Positions 5,925-9,988 of a stretch of 16,938 bases of DNA are shown here, piece by piece. The first letter of the stretch is position 1. Every line of letters starts with the position of its first letter. The stretch is from Candidatus Kaiserbacteria bacterium (GTDB lineage: Bacteria > Patescibacteriota > Minisyncoccia > Phycocordibacterales > UBA2100): the NCBI GenBank assembly GCA_024654165.1, contig JANLIP010000047.1, positions 1-16,938 of the forward strand, given 5' to 3'. Under the pieces are notes generated by a model. The model did no database searches and was not told the origin of the DNA. It saw nothing but the letters and a program-made list of their open reading frames with translations. The position numbers and the translations under genes were made by a program.

Positions 5925-7204
5925 CAAAGGTAGTCCATCGGATTCAAGTATCCGGAAAGCGGGGCTACCGGCATAAGCGCTCCGGAGCAAGGCGTCTTTT
6001 TGTTCGTCGCATCCCCTAGTTTCATTATTTGCGTTGCCGAAGAGACATATACGCCAAAGTGCAGGTGCGGGCCCGTCGCATAACCGGTTTGCCCGCTGTA
6101 TCCTATCAACTGCCCCGTGCCCACAGATTGCCCCCCATAAGCGTTAATCTCCGATAAGTGTGCGTATAGCGTGGCTAGGCCGTTATCATGCTTTATAAGC
6201 ACCCACCTGCCGTATGAATAGCACCCCTTAACTAAGCCGGTATCGCCCACGCCTGCAACTGTGCCGGTAAGAGAGGCTTTTACAGGCATGCCGATTTGAG
6301 CCCCAATGTCAATTCCATTGTGCCCTTTTCCGTTATAACCGCCCGCAAGAGAGAAAGACGTATTGCCGAATTTTTGCGTAATCCGCACTTTATCCAAAGG
6401 CCAATTAAGAATTCCTTTTCCTGCCGGTGTTATCTTTGAAGGATCAATGGTGTATTGCAATTTGGATTGCAGGTCTTGGAGCGCGTTTTCAAAAACAGTC
6501 TTAGCGGCTTGTTTCTGCGCAAGTATCGCTTGGAAATTTGATTCCTGCGATTTCGTTTGAGCAAGAAGCTCGCTTTGAGCTTTTTTTGTAGCGCTCAATG
6601 AGCCCTGTTGTGCAACCAGGGTTTTTTGCTGTTTTACAAGATCCGCCCGCTTGCTTTCTGCGGTTGTCTTTGTCTGAGTTAGGGATTGTTTTTGCTTGGC
6701 TAGCTCTGATATATCTTCGGAAATGGCTTCCCGTATTCTTGCCGAAGAATCAATGTCAGCCCAAACCCCGCCCACATCTGTGGCCGACAAGATTTGAATG
6801 GCAAGGGATTCTGTCTCGCTTTCGCTTAGCCGGCGAATAGTTTCTGCAAGCCCTTTTTTGTTGTTGGCTATGGAATGTTCCTTCAGCGCAATCCCCTGCG
6901 ATAATTGTTTTATTTCCAATTCCGTGGTGGCGATGCGTTTTTTGGTTGCGCTGATTGAAGCTGTAAGTTTCTTTAGAGATAGATTCAACTGGTCAACTGT
7001 ATTCTGCAGTGTTTGCTTTTTTGATGAGGCGCTCGCAAGCTGTGCCTCGTATTGCGCTATCTCTGCATTCAGCTGTTCAATTTCACGGTTCTGTTCGGAT
7101 ATTTGCTGTTGTATTTCCTCGGCCGTGTCTCCCATGACGGCAATGGGAGAAAATATCACCGCGAGGGTTATAAACGTGGCGAAGATTTCAGTTCTTTTAA
7201 TCAT
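5924..7204 (-). CDS. EnvC-like M23 (LytM) peptidase with coiled coil
   Basis: The 426 residues begin with a signal peptide or anchor (MIKRTEIFATFITLAVIFSP, likely cleavage near residues 22-26). A long Gln/Glu/Lys/Ser-rich coiled coil follows (about 27-115 and 165-250), then a C-terminal LytM domain (about 265-426). The zinc-site motifs are present: HNGID (His295, Asp299), YAHLS and HLHFG (His380, His382). It is therefore probably an active peptidoglycan endopeptidase rather than a degenerate EnvC that only activates amidases. It should act outside the membrane in wall remodelling during division. Its ATG overlaps the gltX stop (ATGA), so the two are translationally coupled, and it is the last gene of the minus-strand cluster. 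Confidence 0.9.
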   Translation of the reverse strand: MIKRTEIFATFITLAVIFSPIAVMGDTAEEIQQQISEQNREIEQLNAEIAQYEAQLASASSKKQTLQNTVDQLNLSLKKLTASISATKKRIATTELEIKQLSQGIALKEHSIANNKKGLAETIRRLSESETESLAIQILSATDVGGVWADIDSSARIREAISEDISELAKQKQSLTQTKTTAESKRADLVKQQKTLVAQQGSLSATKKAQSELLAQTKSQESNFQAILAQKQAAKTVFENALQDLQSKLQYTIDPSKITPAGKGILNWPLDKVRITQKFGNTSFSLAGGYNGKGHNGIDIGAQIGMPVKASLTGTVAGVGDTGLVKGCYSYGRWVLIKHDNGLATLYAHLSEINAYGGQSVGTGQLIGYSGQTGYATGPHLHFGVYVSSATQIMKLGDATNKKTPCSGALMPVAPLSGYLNPMDYL

Positions 7205-8562
7205 AATGCAATCTGATTAACCGCAGATTCGATTCGTCCGATCACGGCGTCCTTTCCTATTATAGAGGCTATTTGAAAAGGGTCCGGTGACTGCTTCCGT
7301 CCGGATAGAGAATAGCGCAATGGCCACAATACCTCCCCCCTCCCCTCGCGTGAGGCGTAATCCCAAATCGCGGTTTTTATCTTTTCAGGATTATTGAAAG
7401 AATTTGCTGGAATTCCAACGATTATTTTCTGTAATTCCTTTAGATGTTTTTCCGCATCCTGCAAGTTCCCGCCTTTTCCCGGTATTTCATCCGTAGCAAG
7501 AACAGGGTTTGCAAAAAAGTAATCAAGCTCGCCCTCTGCAATAAGCGCTCTCAAATCTCCCCACACATGTATCCGCTCGCGGACAAGATTTAGAATTGAC
7601 TTGCCCGTTTCTTCGCTCCACTTTACCTCGCGCACAGCAAGCGAAGATTCCATGATAGCAAGAGCGCCTCTCTCAAATTCTTCCGCGGGCATTTTCAAAA
7701 GATAACTGCGGTTGAACCAGCGCAATTTCTCCATATCAAATACAGCTCCGCTTTTGTGCAAATCGGCTATCTCAAACTCTTGTATCATTTCTTCAACAGA
7801 CATAATTTCTCTTTCCGATTTTGGAGTCCATCCAAGCATGGCGATGTAATTAAAAAACGCTTTAGGCAAGTATCCTTCTTCCCTGTAGCTTTTGACCGAT
7901 GTATCCCCTGTGCGTTTGGATAGTTTTGATTTGTCGGAGCCAAGTAAAAGCGGATAGTGCGCGTATTGCGGTCTATCATATCCAAGGCTCTCCTGTATAA
8001 GGATTTGGCGCGGAGTATTTGAAATATGGTCGTCTCCGCGAATAACATGCGTGATGCCCATCTTTGCATCGTCAACAACTGCGGCAAAGTGATACAGCGG
8101 ATCATCCGCGGAGCGCGCTATTACAAAATCCCCTAGCTCTGTCGTATCAAAGGTGATTTCTCCCCGTACAAGGTCGGTAAACGTGACTTTTGTGCCAGGG
8201 TTTTTCAAGCGAACCACGTTCACTATTTTGCCAGGCTCTTTTTTGCTGTCTTCTGCGGAGACGTATGCTCGTCTTGAATCAATTAACGAATGAAGCGCCG
8301 TTCGGTATATTTCGGTCCGCTCCGATTGCCTGTAAAATTCATCCCACTCAAGGCCTAACCAATGCAAAGAATCTATTATGTCGGTCTCAAACTCTTTTTT
8401 GCTTCTTTCTTTATCCGTATCTTCGCTTCTAAATACGATTGTGCCATTATTCTTTTTAGCAAAAAGGAAATTTATTATTGCCATCCGCGCGGTGCCCACG
8501 TGGCAGTATCCCGTCGGGCTGGGAGGCAGGCGTACGCGTACACCGCTGAAATTAGGGGTCAT
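7201..8562 (-). CDS. gltX: Glutamyl-tRNA synthetase
   Basis: This class I synthetase charges tRNA-Glu. Motifs are RLPPSPTGYCHVGTAR (HIGH-type signature HVGT), FRSEDTDKERS, HVIRGDDHISNTPRQILI and SKLSKRTGD (KMSKS-type loop). The C-terminal half is the helical anticodon-binding region, ending IESAVNQIAL. Two starts are in frame: ATG 8583 (460 residues) and ATG 8562 (453). The upstream seven codons lie inside an inverted-repeat arm (8563-8589), and the family normally begins a few residues before the VRxRxxPSPTG motif, so 8562 is preferred; this is a judgement. No Shine-Dalgarno is seen for either. In species without GlnRS it would also mischarge tRNA-Gln for GatCAB, which cannot be judged here. 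Confidence 0.94.
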   Translation of the reverse strand: MTPNFSGVRVRLPPSPTGYCHVGTARMAIINFLFAKKNNGTIVFRSEDTDKERSKKEFETDIIDSLHWLGLEWDEFYRQSERTEIYRTALHSLIDSRRAYVSAEDSKKEPGKIVNVVRLKNPGTKVTFTDLVRGEITFDTTELGDFVIARSADDPLYHFAAVVDDAKMGITHVIRGDDHISNTPRQILIQESLGYDRPQYAHYPLLLGSDKSKLSKRTGDTSVKSYREEGYLPKAFFNYIAMLGWTPKSEREIMSVEEMIQEFEIADLHKSGAVFDMEKLRWFNRSYLLKMPAEEFERGALAIMESSLAVREVKWSEETGKSILNLVRERIHVWGDLRALIAEGELDYFFANPVLATDEIPGKGGNLQDAEKHLKELQKIIVGIPANSFNNPEKIKTAIWDYASREGRGEVLWPLRYSLSGRKQSPDPFQIASIIGKDAVIGRIESAVNQIAL

Positions 8563-8693
8563 ACCTGTCACACGAAATGGCATTGTTTCTGCAATACCAA
8601 ATTCATTATCTTGTTAAACGAGTTAGTAGAGAGATATATCAGATAAAATCTCGAGTCCTGAAACCATTGCCATGCCATTTCGTGTGTACAGGT
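8563..8693. repeat. Long inverted repeat in the murG-gltX gap
   Basis: The core arms are 8563-8582 (20 bases) and 8673-8693 (21 bases), identical in inverted orientation except for one extra base. With a six-base bulge and one further mismatch they extend to 8563-8589 and 8660-8693. The right arm overlaps the last base of the murG stop, and the left arm covers the upstream candidate ATG of gltX and ends next to the downstream one. In the transcript it would form a long stem in front of gltX. Confidence 0.75.
8568..8678 (-). CDS. Possible 36-residue upstream ORF of gltX
   Basis: A frame starts in the 5' arm of the inverted repeat (ATG 8678) and stops in the 3' arm (TGA 8570-8568). It encodes a Trp- and aromatic-rich peptide (starts MAWQWFQDSRFYL, ends LQKQCHFV). 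It overlaps the longer gltX start in another frame. No similarity is recognised and there is no Shine-Dalgarno. It matters because the murG leader has the same layout; coding status is unproven. Confidence 0.25.
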   Translation of the reverse strand: MAWQWFQDSRFYLIYLSTNSFNKIMNLVLQKQCHFV

Positions 8694-9835
8694 CATATCG
8701 TCTCATGCTCTAGGGCAATATCAATAATTGCAGAAGCGATTTTCTTTGCACTGTCTCTTCGCGAGAAATTGCGGGCGGATTCAGACATTCTTTCCTGCAA
8801 TGCCTTATCGCCTAAGATTCTGTCAATTTCAGCAAGCAGAAGGTGCTTGGTCAAATTTTGCTGTTCCAGCACTACCGAAGCGCCCGCGCGCGCAAAAGAA
8901 AAGGCATTTTCTGTCTGGTCGTGAGAAACGTCCAATGGAATGGGGATTAATATTGAGGGCATTCCCCAGCTGGCGATTTCAAAAATCGTTCCGCTCCCTG
9001 CGCGCGCGATTACAAGCGATGTAATTCCGGCGGTCATTCGCAGTGCGAGCGTGTTCAAAAGCCCAAAGGCCCGGTACCGCTTTTCATGGTCGCTATTTCT
9101 AAGAACCAATCGGGCAATGCGCGTGGCCTCAACAAGATTCGCGGTTCCCACTTGGTGTACGACGTTATACCGGCTTACTAGTTCCGGCAATGCGTCCAAA
9201 ACTGCGTTGTTAATCGCCACTGCGCCCTGCGATCCGCCCATGATAAATATTGTGGGCACTGATTTCTCAAGCCCGAGGAATTCATAACCGCCTTCGCGCG
9301 CAGGACTTTCAATCTCTTTTCGTATGGGGTGGCCGGTTCGAGCTATTATGTGCTGGACTTTCTCGGAAAACTGTTTGGCTGCATCCGGGTGCGCAATTGC
9401 AATCAGTTGCGCAAATTTTGACGACCACAGAGAGACTCGTCCAGGAGAGGAATCAGCATCATAGATTATCACCGGGATTCTAAGCAGGCGCGCCGCAACA
9501 AGCGCGGGATACGCGGCAAACCCGCCTGTAGAGAAAATCACGTCGGGGTAGATGTTGAACATCTTAATTGTCCCGAGGATTATGCCCCAAGCAGTTTTAA
9601 ATAAGCCGAAAAAATTAAGCGCGCTTCTGTAATAGCGCACGCGCCCGGCGGTTGTCTCGTAATGCTGTATGTCATGTTCCCGAAGCGCAAGCGCGTCAAA
9701 AGGCTCCGGCCCGATGTAATAGAGCTCTGGCTCAATCAGCCGCCGTTCTTTTGCAAGGTCTTCCAATGCTTCAGCGACGGCTATAAGCGGGTAAAAATGC
9801 CCGCCGGTTCCCCCTCCTGTGAGTGCGATTCGCAT
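8693..9835 (-). CDS. murG: UDP-GlcNAc:lipid I N-acetylglucosaminyltransferase
   Basis: MurG is the GT28 membrane-associated enzyme that adds GlcNAc to lipid I to give lipid II. Signatures are GGGTGGHFYP (residues 7-16), GGFAAYPALVAA, IYDADSSPG (in place of the common HEQN stretch), FIMGGSQGAVAIN at the start of the donor domain, RAGSGTIFEIASWGMPSI and HDQTENA. The 380 residues are slightly longer than the ~355 of E. coli. The start ATG 9835 is followed at once by the GGGTGGH strand, so it is well placed, but it lies inside the 3' arm of an inverted repeat and has no Shine-Dalgarno. It follows mraY and ftsW, the genes for the steps before and after it. Confidence 0.95.
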   Translation of the reverse strand: MRIALTGGGTGGHFYPLIAVAEALEDLAKERRLIEPELYYIGPEPFDALALREHDIQHYETTAGRVRYYRSALNFFGLFKTAWGIILGTIKMFNIYPDVIFSTGGFAAYPALVAARLLRIPVIIYDADSSPGRVSLWSSKFAQLIAIAHPDAAKQFSEKVQHIIARTGHPIRKEIESPAREGGYEFLGLEKSVPTIFIMGGSQGAVAINNAVLDALPELVSRYNVVHQVGTANLVEATRIARLVLRNSDHEKRYRAFGLLNTLALRMTAGITSLVIARAGSGTIFEIASWGMPSILIPIPLDVSHDQTENAFSFARAGASVVLEQQNLTKHLLLAEIDRILGDKALQERMSESARNFSRRDSAKKIASAIIDIALEHETI

Positions 9836-9975
9836 ACCCGTACACTAAGTGTGCCGTAATTCCCGATGTGAAAAATCCAGCGACCACTGGGGTGTGTCGA
9901 TAAAAGAGTATGCCCCTTCAGAATGATTGTGTTTATTCATGGCAAAGCAACGGCACACTTGGTGTCCGGGCATGC
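9832..9975. repeat. Long inverted repeat in the ftsW-murG gap
   Basis: Arms of 26 bases, 9832-9857 and 9950-9975, match at 23 of 26 positions in inverted orientation; one of the three differences allows a G-U pair in RNA. They enclose 92 bases. The left arm contains the murG start codon and the right arm contains the start of a 42-codon frame. Flanking direct repeats are not evident. Confidence 0.75.
9845..9973 (-). CDS. Possible 42-residue small protein or leader upstream of murG
   Basis: This frame runs from ATG 9973 to TAG 9847-9845, with a His-rich N-terminal half (MPGHQVCRC, then AMNKHNHSEGAYSF) and a C-terminal part DTPQWSLDFSHRELRHT. The composition looks protein-like: acidic, aromatic and basic residues are mixed, with no low complexity. 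A strong extended -10 box lies exactly 6 bases before its ATG. Start and stop each lie in one arm of the inverted repeat. I cannot assign a family. It could be a leaderless leader peptide controlling murG, a small protein or a mobile-repeat relic. Confidence 0.35.
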   Translation of the reverse strand: MPGHQVCRCFAMNKHNHSEGAYSFIDTPQWSLDFSHRELRHT

Positions 9976-9979
9976 TTCC

Positions 9980-9988
9980 ATTTTAACA
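9980..9988 (-). promoter_or_regulatory. Candidate extended -10 promoter inside the cluster, upstream of murG
   Basis: On the minus strand TGT-TAAAAT (9988-9980) is followed by 6 bases and the ATG at 9973. TTGACC (10011-10006) lies 20 bases upstream of the -10, too far for an ideal -35, so recognition would rely on the extended -10. It would give murG, gltX and the peptidase a promoter of their own. Confidence 0.5.

Follow-up and report, generated by a model that had tools for sequence, protein, structure and literature searches.

MITEs are short, multicopy sequences with terminal inverted repeats and target-site duplications, and they carry no transposase. T4-like phages contain free-standing GIY-YIG homing endonuclease genes, and homing copies such genes into allelic sites by recombination. 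Other mobile elements are aimed at the regions where expression starts, among them Ty3 (Pol III start sites) and TnGBS (promoters). The Rickettsia palindromic elements, as presented in the part of the source considered here (PMC10969869), are ~150 bp long, belong to many families and occur in unrelated genes, where open frames keep the host gene usable. For CPR rRNA genes, the portion of the text at hand (PMC11270868) places all GIY-YIG proteins found there in insertions that are not introns, and also reports short ORF-less insertions, uncharacterised and mostly <200 bp; the terms "start codon" and "inverted repeat" do not occur in its main text. In the openly licensed literature, preprints aside, we found no description of start-codon-targeted GIY-YIG elements.

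The window, i.e. the whole stretch of 16,938 nucleotides analysed here, contains a long inverted repeat at the start codon of murG. This hairpin is likely to be a non-autonomous member of a mobile family that targets start codons, with an internal open frame (the relay frame) that would keep the host gene translated and with a GIY-YIG version acting as mobiliser. The element differs from MITEs in its start-codon position, in its fixed orientation and in having a GIY-YIG candidate partner instead of a known transposase. Like the GIY-YIG homing genes of T4-like phages, its long version is a small, presumably selfish GIY-YIG gene between genes; here, however, the insertions are non-allelic and have arms and duplications, and the many non-allelic sites argue against simple homing. 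With Ty3 and TnGBS it shares the targeting of expression starts, but the proteins differ, and we know of no start-codon duplication or relay frame in either of them. The Rickettsia elements, as far as the text considered goes (PMC10969869), are likewise small palindromes in unrelated genes with open frames that spare the host, but they are read in frame within the host ORF, whereas the element described here precedes the gene and stops before or at its ATG. The CPR insertions have in common with it the Patescibacteria hosts, the non-intron GIY-YIG insertions and the short ORF-less ones; they lie in rRNA genes, and the portion at hand (PMC11270868) makes no mention of start codons, of relay frames or of miniature derivatives.

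The following features were located around murG (all on the minus strand):

9837-9970, minus strand: start-codon element at murG, 134 bp (inverted-repeat scan, L001 1513-1646, and covariance model R1, which includes this copy)
9950-9975, minus strand: upstream arm as delimited by the repeat finder (pair I2), taking in flanking duplication bases
9832-9857, minus strand: gene-side arm as delimited by the repeat finder (pair I2), taking in the murG ATG
9971-9974, minus strand: upstream target-site duplication CATG, keeping the old start codon position (from the sequence)
9833-9836, minus strand: downstream duplication TATG with the murG start codon (from the sequence)
9845-9973, minus strand: relay frame of 42 codons, ATG 9973 to TAG 9847-9845 (ORF list)
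9980-9985, minus strand: -10-like TAAAAT, 6 nt before the upstream ATG (from the sequence; TANNNT at like spacing in relatives)
8693-9835, minus strand: murG, 380 aa (Pfam PF04101, PF03033)

The initial annotation had described arms that would bury the murG AUG, an enclosed 42-codon frame with its own -10 and a similar design at gltX, and all of these observations were borne out. The arms of 26 nt are 88% complementary and belong to the A-type (CCCGGACACCAAGTGTGCC... / ...GGCACACTTAGTGTACGGG); the exact borders of the element were set by comparison with other copies. The RNA segment 9820-9990 was predicted to fold at -58.3 kcal/mol (z = -4.1), with 0 of 200 shuffles as stable, and the murG AUG sits in the outer stem of this fold. 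The upstream arm by itself folds at -4.0 kcal/mol. The relay frame stops 9 nt before the murG ATG. No match above the gathering score was obtained with Rfam in the window, and the 42-aa frame had no Pfam match.

A DNA search with the murG copy gave a second, partial match in its own genome, and 5 of 60 genomes, its own included, were matched. Ten aligned copies, the murG copy among them, showed covarying arms (7 of 21 pairs changed on both sides) and were used to build the covariance model R1. With R1, 13 distinct loci were detected in the genome of the window (E≤1), and 19 of 52 genomes of the genus had matches. One contig with matching arms carries the label Candidatus Kaiserbacteria. Judged from these sequences, the murG hairpin is one copy of a multicopy element of ~130 bp, with inverted CCC...GGG arms, in a Kaiserbacteria-type genus of Patescibacteria. 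All results were computed from assemblies, probably mostly MAGs. An independent scan for CCC...GGG inverted repeats, which covered the loci fetched for matching the family and is not a genome-wide census, revealed 84 distinct elements, vs 3 matches in reversed sequence. The terminal inverted repeats are MITE-like, and the length is 129-146 bp among 81 copies at start codons (defined below). The interiors are very diverse: they fall into 50 clusters when the alignment score per length is set at 0.70, and the median pair scores 0.46. Mismatches in the arms were A.C in 28 cases and G.T in 25; with no wobble excess, pairing looks maintained at the DNA level, and no RNA function is implied. Among viral contigs there were 9 exact matches to the arm pattern, none with a match to the model.

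To count duplications, 80 of the 84 elements were kept; L075:5796, L095:2635, L097:2636 and L100:1370 were dropped, the last three of which share arms CCCCGTTAGAAGTC and precede gltX of relatives. Exact direct repeats of at least 4 bp flanked both ends of 54 of the 80 elements, whereas in 2000 flank shuffles the count averaged 8.0 and never exceeded 17. With the 35 elements that lack CAT/ATG in the left flank, 24 had exact repeats (shuffles: mean 2.1, maximum 9). For all 126 elements the count was 88 (mean 31.6, maximum 42), the shuffled value being high because many share TATG. The repeat varies by site (TATG, CTTG, GATAA, CGCAG and others), as a target-site duplication of 4-5 bp should. Counting against a mobile element, 26 of the 80 have no exact 4-bp repeat, and the murG copy is one of them, its flanks CATG and TATG being one base apart. 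In genome G008, near-identical copies (0.97-0.985 in pairwise alignment) lie at three different genes, which points to recent mobility. An alternative offered at the outset, a mobile repeat with a relic frame, thus held as regards the mobile repeat; that the frame is a mere relic did not hold, given the frequency of bridging frames reported below.

The position relative to genes was then scored. A copy was called start-type if the ATG one base past GGG begins a frame of 60 or more codons, or of 40 or more where the frame runs off the locus. This is an operational ORF criterion (at least 60 or at least 100 codons, depending on the count) and not a mapping of protein starts; conserved N-termini fix the start for ribosomal L9, murG and the GlmS-like protein (MCGIF). 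By this definition 81 of 126 elements are start-type, the other 45 not being at a start codon. In 79 of these 81 the frame reaches 100 or more codons, or 60 or more where it runs off the locus. Of the copies ending in YATG, 77/84 precede a frame of at least 100 codons, vs 147/632 (23%) YATG sites outside called ORFs; with the looser threshold of at least 60 codons the values were 79/84 and 189/631. In a B-type set chosen by arm sequence alone, from which two far ends were taken out, 38 of 43 gene-side ends lay where a frame of 100 or more codons begins, vs 0 of 23 opposite ends; this set is largely fresh (2 of the 38, L028 and L030, were known before), and the rule had itself been shaped in part by B-type copies. 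The exceptions were L153, L177 and L181, together with one end in L145 and the minus end in L157. An internal motif was present on the far side only in 55 of 81 copies and on the gene side only in 2. These counts show that the element often sits at start codons, in one fixed orientation. Pfam analysis of 20 selected host genes revealed largely core genes, including those for DapA, DapB, ArgJ, NusG, ribosomal L9, FolD, SecA, FtsW, ScpA, MreB, FtsZ and RNase III; the insertions at 2 of the 20 scanned genes (L196 and L209) and at the gene for RNase III (L144, which is also the locus of L183) are GIY-YIG versions.

To count as a relay frame, a frame had to span at least 20 codons and either stop 10 to 5 nt ahead of the gene ATG or share 4 nt with it (ATGA). 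Such a frame was found in 75 of the 81 start-type copies (the exceptions are L009, L055, L067, L090, L166 and L175), whereas shuffling the interiors with the arms kept gave 986/4050 (24%), and the antisense strand 3/81; weighted over the 50 clusters, the fraction was 0.93. The element is thus unlike the Rickettsia elements, which are inserted in frame within a coding sequence: these 75 frames stop 5-10 nt before the gene ATG or overlap it. The choice of the frame that is open towards the gene varies with the presence of ATGA at the gene start (dominant-frame test, Fisher p = 3.5e-5); this test replaced a Fisher test of overlap versus arm stop, which was circular and was set aside. In our own reading, the B-type arms differ where the upstream arm would have to stay open and where the gene-side arm gives TAA/TAG. 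The pN/pS of the relay frames was 0.56 (27 non-independent pairs), which indicates at most weak selection on the peptide. The earlier suggestion, in which translating the small frame to its end would bring a ribosome to the gene start, may hold as a general property of the element, not as a switch of murG.

The second element of the window lies between murG and gltX:

8564-8692, minus strand: second start-codon element, at gltX, with D-type arms, 129 bp (inverted-repeat scan, L001 240-368)
8693-8697, minus strand: upstream duplication TATGA; the murG TGA (8695-8693) overlaps the ATG (8696-8694) that opens the relay frame
8559-8563, minus strand: downstream duplication TATGA with the gltX ATG 8562-8560 (from the sequence)
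8568-8696, minus strand: relay frame of the gltX copy, 42 codons, with its stop 5 nt before the gltX ATG
7201-8562, minus strand: gltX (PF00749, PF19269), with its start placed on the basis of the duplication and of where gltX starts in three relatives

Here the direct repeat is exact (TATGA), and the element lies inside the ATGA overlap of murG and gltX; murG ends in ATATGA. Because TATGA was duplicated, murG retains its stop, the upstream ATG opens the relay frame and gltX retains the ATG at 8562. This copy is the clearest case of insertion at a start codon. The longest ORF of gltX begins at 8583, within the element, so that annotation can call the starts of element-bearing genes inside the element. 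At the murG-gltX junction of three relatives a different inverted repeat, roughly CCCCGTTAGAAGTC...GACTTCTAACGGGG, stands before the gltX start, and its arms resemble those at the GIY-YIG loci L188 and L200:

L095:2635-2765: different junction repeat in a relative
L097:2636-2762: different junction repeat in a relative
L100:1370-1500: different junction repeat in a relative

The state of murG without an element was judged from 30 fetched murG loci of 50 matches, all of which were read. R1 detected the element in the murG leader of its own genome only (the match in L104 is at ftsW), and neither R1 nor the inverted-repeat scan placed one in the other 29 fetched leaders; conservation of the leader, which had been proposed as a check, is therefore not seen in this set. 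TANNNT was present exactly 6 nt before the murG ATG in 17 of the 29 relatives. Among 377 ORFs of at least 150 codons at the fetched loci of the genus, TANNNT peaks 6 nt before the ATG (13.8%; other spacers 0.3-4.2%) and Shine-Dalgarno-like sequences are scarce (7.4%, crude motif), as expected of frequent leaderless transcripts. TAAAAT at 9985-9980 is thus a probable original leaderless promoter of murG: the box that stands 6 nt before ATG in relatives stands here 6 nt before the upstream ATG, and the element probably split the promoter-start unit, so that an ATG remained at both of its ends. Of 38 element-bearing genes, only 9 have a box at this 6-nt distance from the upstream ATG, which means that a promoter is no requirement. 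A promoter inside the gene-side arm of the murG copy itself was also considered, with TAGTGT 6 nt before the ATG. Such a promoter is possible for murG, but as a general feature it was thought unlikely, since other copies have, by eye, TGGTGT or TACTAA at that position.

A long version of the element was sought by arm patterns; most arms paired at short distance, and some had no listed partner. An arm spacing of 273 bp at G072:C15 pointed to a B-type element of 302 bp in which the relay slot is taken by a 99-aa GIY-YIG protein, its frame running between the upstream ATG and the usual stop (Pfam PF01541, E 3e-14; further versions of ~300 bp, 5e-19 to 6e-15). With the G072 protein as query, 49 of 52 genomes of the genus were matched, and 30 best-match loci were fetched. 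GIY-YIG versions were found with A-type arms (L196, at a G6PD gene, and L199), with B-type arms (L183, at RNase III, where the frame stops 24 nt short of the border) and with D-type arms (L191, L209 at a GlmS-like gene, and L210 in the genome of the window), and they share arm families with the miniatures. In a strict ungapped test, which misses the gapped arms of L182, L191, L209 and L210, arms plus repeat were present at 10 of 28 fetched best-match genus loci with an intact frame (8 of the 10 at start codons), at 3 of 23 loci of the wider phylum (one at a start codon, L222) and in 0 of 277 control intervals. Since 49 of 52 genomes have matches and few loci pass, many GIY-YIG genes may not be such elements. 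The GIY-YIG versions of ~300 bp are likely the autonomous form. Counting against this, the sole GIY-YIG match in the genome of the window has D-type arms and not the A-type arms of the murG copy.

We propose that the element would insert at the start codon of a gene in one orientation and duplicate 4-5 bp that contain the ATG. The upstream ATG would keep the original translation input, namely the probable leaderless promoter at murG and the TGA/ATG overlap with murG at gltX. The frame of the element, sometimes two frames in series, would open at the upstream or an inner ATG and stop a few nt from the downstream ATG, and we infer that ribosomes traverse the hairpin and then re-start at the host gene, so that insertions in important genes would be tolerated. 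Mobilisation would most likely come from the GIY-YIG nuclease of the ~300-bp versions, which would drive insertion and move the miniatures in trans. A bolder reading, to which we give an even chance, is that these sequences represent a new class of mobile element in which GIY-YIG is the sole insertion enzyme, the inverted-repeat elements recognise start codons, and the ATG duplication together with a translated relay evades counter-selection; related families may aim at further short sites, DnaA boxes for example. If the proposal is true, it could account for many small GIY-YIG genes of Patescibacteria, a selfish element could enter the start codon of an essential gene without killing the host, and nature would supply a translational-coupling system in a setting poor in Shine-Dalgarno-like signals.

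It is unlikely that an ordinary MITE with a (T/C)ATG preference accounts for the data, with only start-codon insertions surviving because others break genes. Both the duplications and the arms agree with a MITE, and the genomes are indeed compact, but starts make up 147 of the 632 YATG sites outside called ORFs, yet they receive 77 of 84 copies; orientation is fixed (38 vs 0), and such a MITE alone leaves the bridging frames unexplained. An attenuator or leader-peptide switch specific to murG, which the initial annotation had favoured for lipid II synthesis, could draw on the AUG in a strong stem and the frame ending 9 nt before it; it is largely refuted and now scarcely probable, because the arms are multicopy and a like element stands at the start codons of unrelated genes, none was found in the leaders of the 29 further murG loci that were fetched, and in 17 of 29 relatives the murG ATG is preceded, at 6 nt, by a -10-like box.

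We regard as very unlikely a fixed, non-mobile regulatory leader of a regulon, spread by ancient duplication and kept for translation control. Orientation and distance to the ATG are constant, and orthologous-looking genes, judged by their N-termini, bear the element in more than one species (a pilB-like ATPase in L056, L058 and L037; L002 and L082; a dapA-like gene in L083 and L009), but the direct repeats vary with the site, near-identical copies occupy different genes of one genome, arm families are many and GIY-YIG versions exist. In REP/REPIN sequences each arm is itself a short hairpin. That the element is of the REPIN/RAYT type and moved by a Y1 (IS200-like) transposase is most improbable: its inverted arms are short, GTAG occurs within 34 of 81 upstream arms and a Y1-like ORF was seen by eye in L076, yet a hairpin of its own (≤ -3 kcal/mol) is formed by just 4 of 81 arms on the upstream side, that of murG among them, and by 4 of 81 on the gene side, GIY-YIG genes lie between the arms, and the duplications are of the staggered-cut kind with variable sequence, which to our knowledge is not expected of Y1 enzymes.

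Further repeats were noted besides the start-codon element. Another inverted repeat of the window, at 2747-2862 (arms of 21 nt, 95% complementary, ATCCCGCCCCAATTTAGTATC), lies upstream of the ORF at 2904, and no clear direct repeat was found at it. The 45 copies off start codons include 8 whose empty site (TTATCCACA/TTTTCCACA) matches TTWTCCACA, which we take to be a DnaA-box-like motif, with at most one mismatch, vs 1% by chance; this was tested after the sites had been seen, and such sites may be another target class:

L073, L085, L091, L092: DnaA-box-like empty sites, exact
L011, L014, L045, L046: DnaA-box-like empty sites, one mismatch

In genome G017, loci L068-L076 contain a high-copy arm family, CCCGCACACTTACTTTGGC, off start codons and with repeats such as CTTG, TTGA and CGCAG. 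The ORF at L076:3064-3795 resembles, by eye, a Y1 transposase of the IS200/RAYT type.
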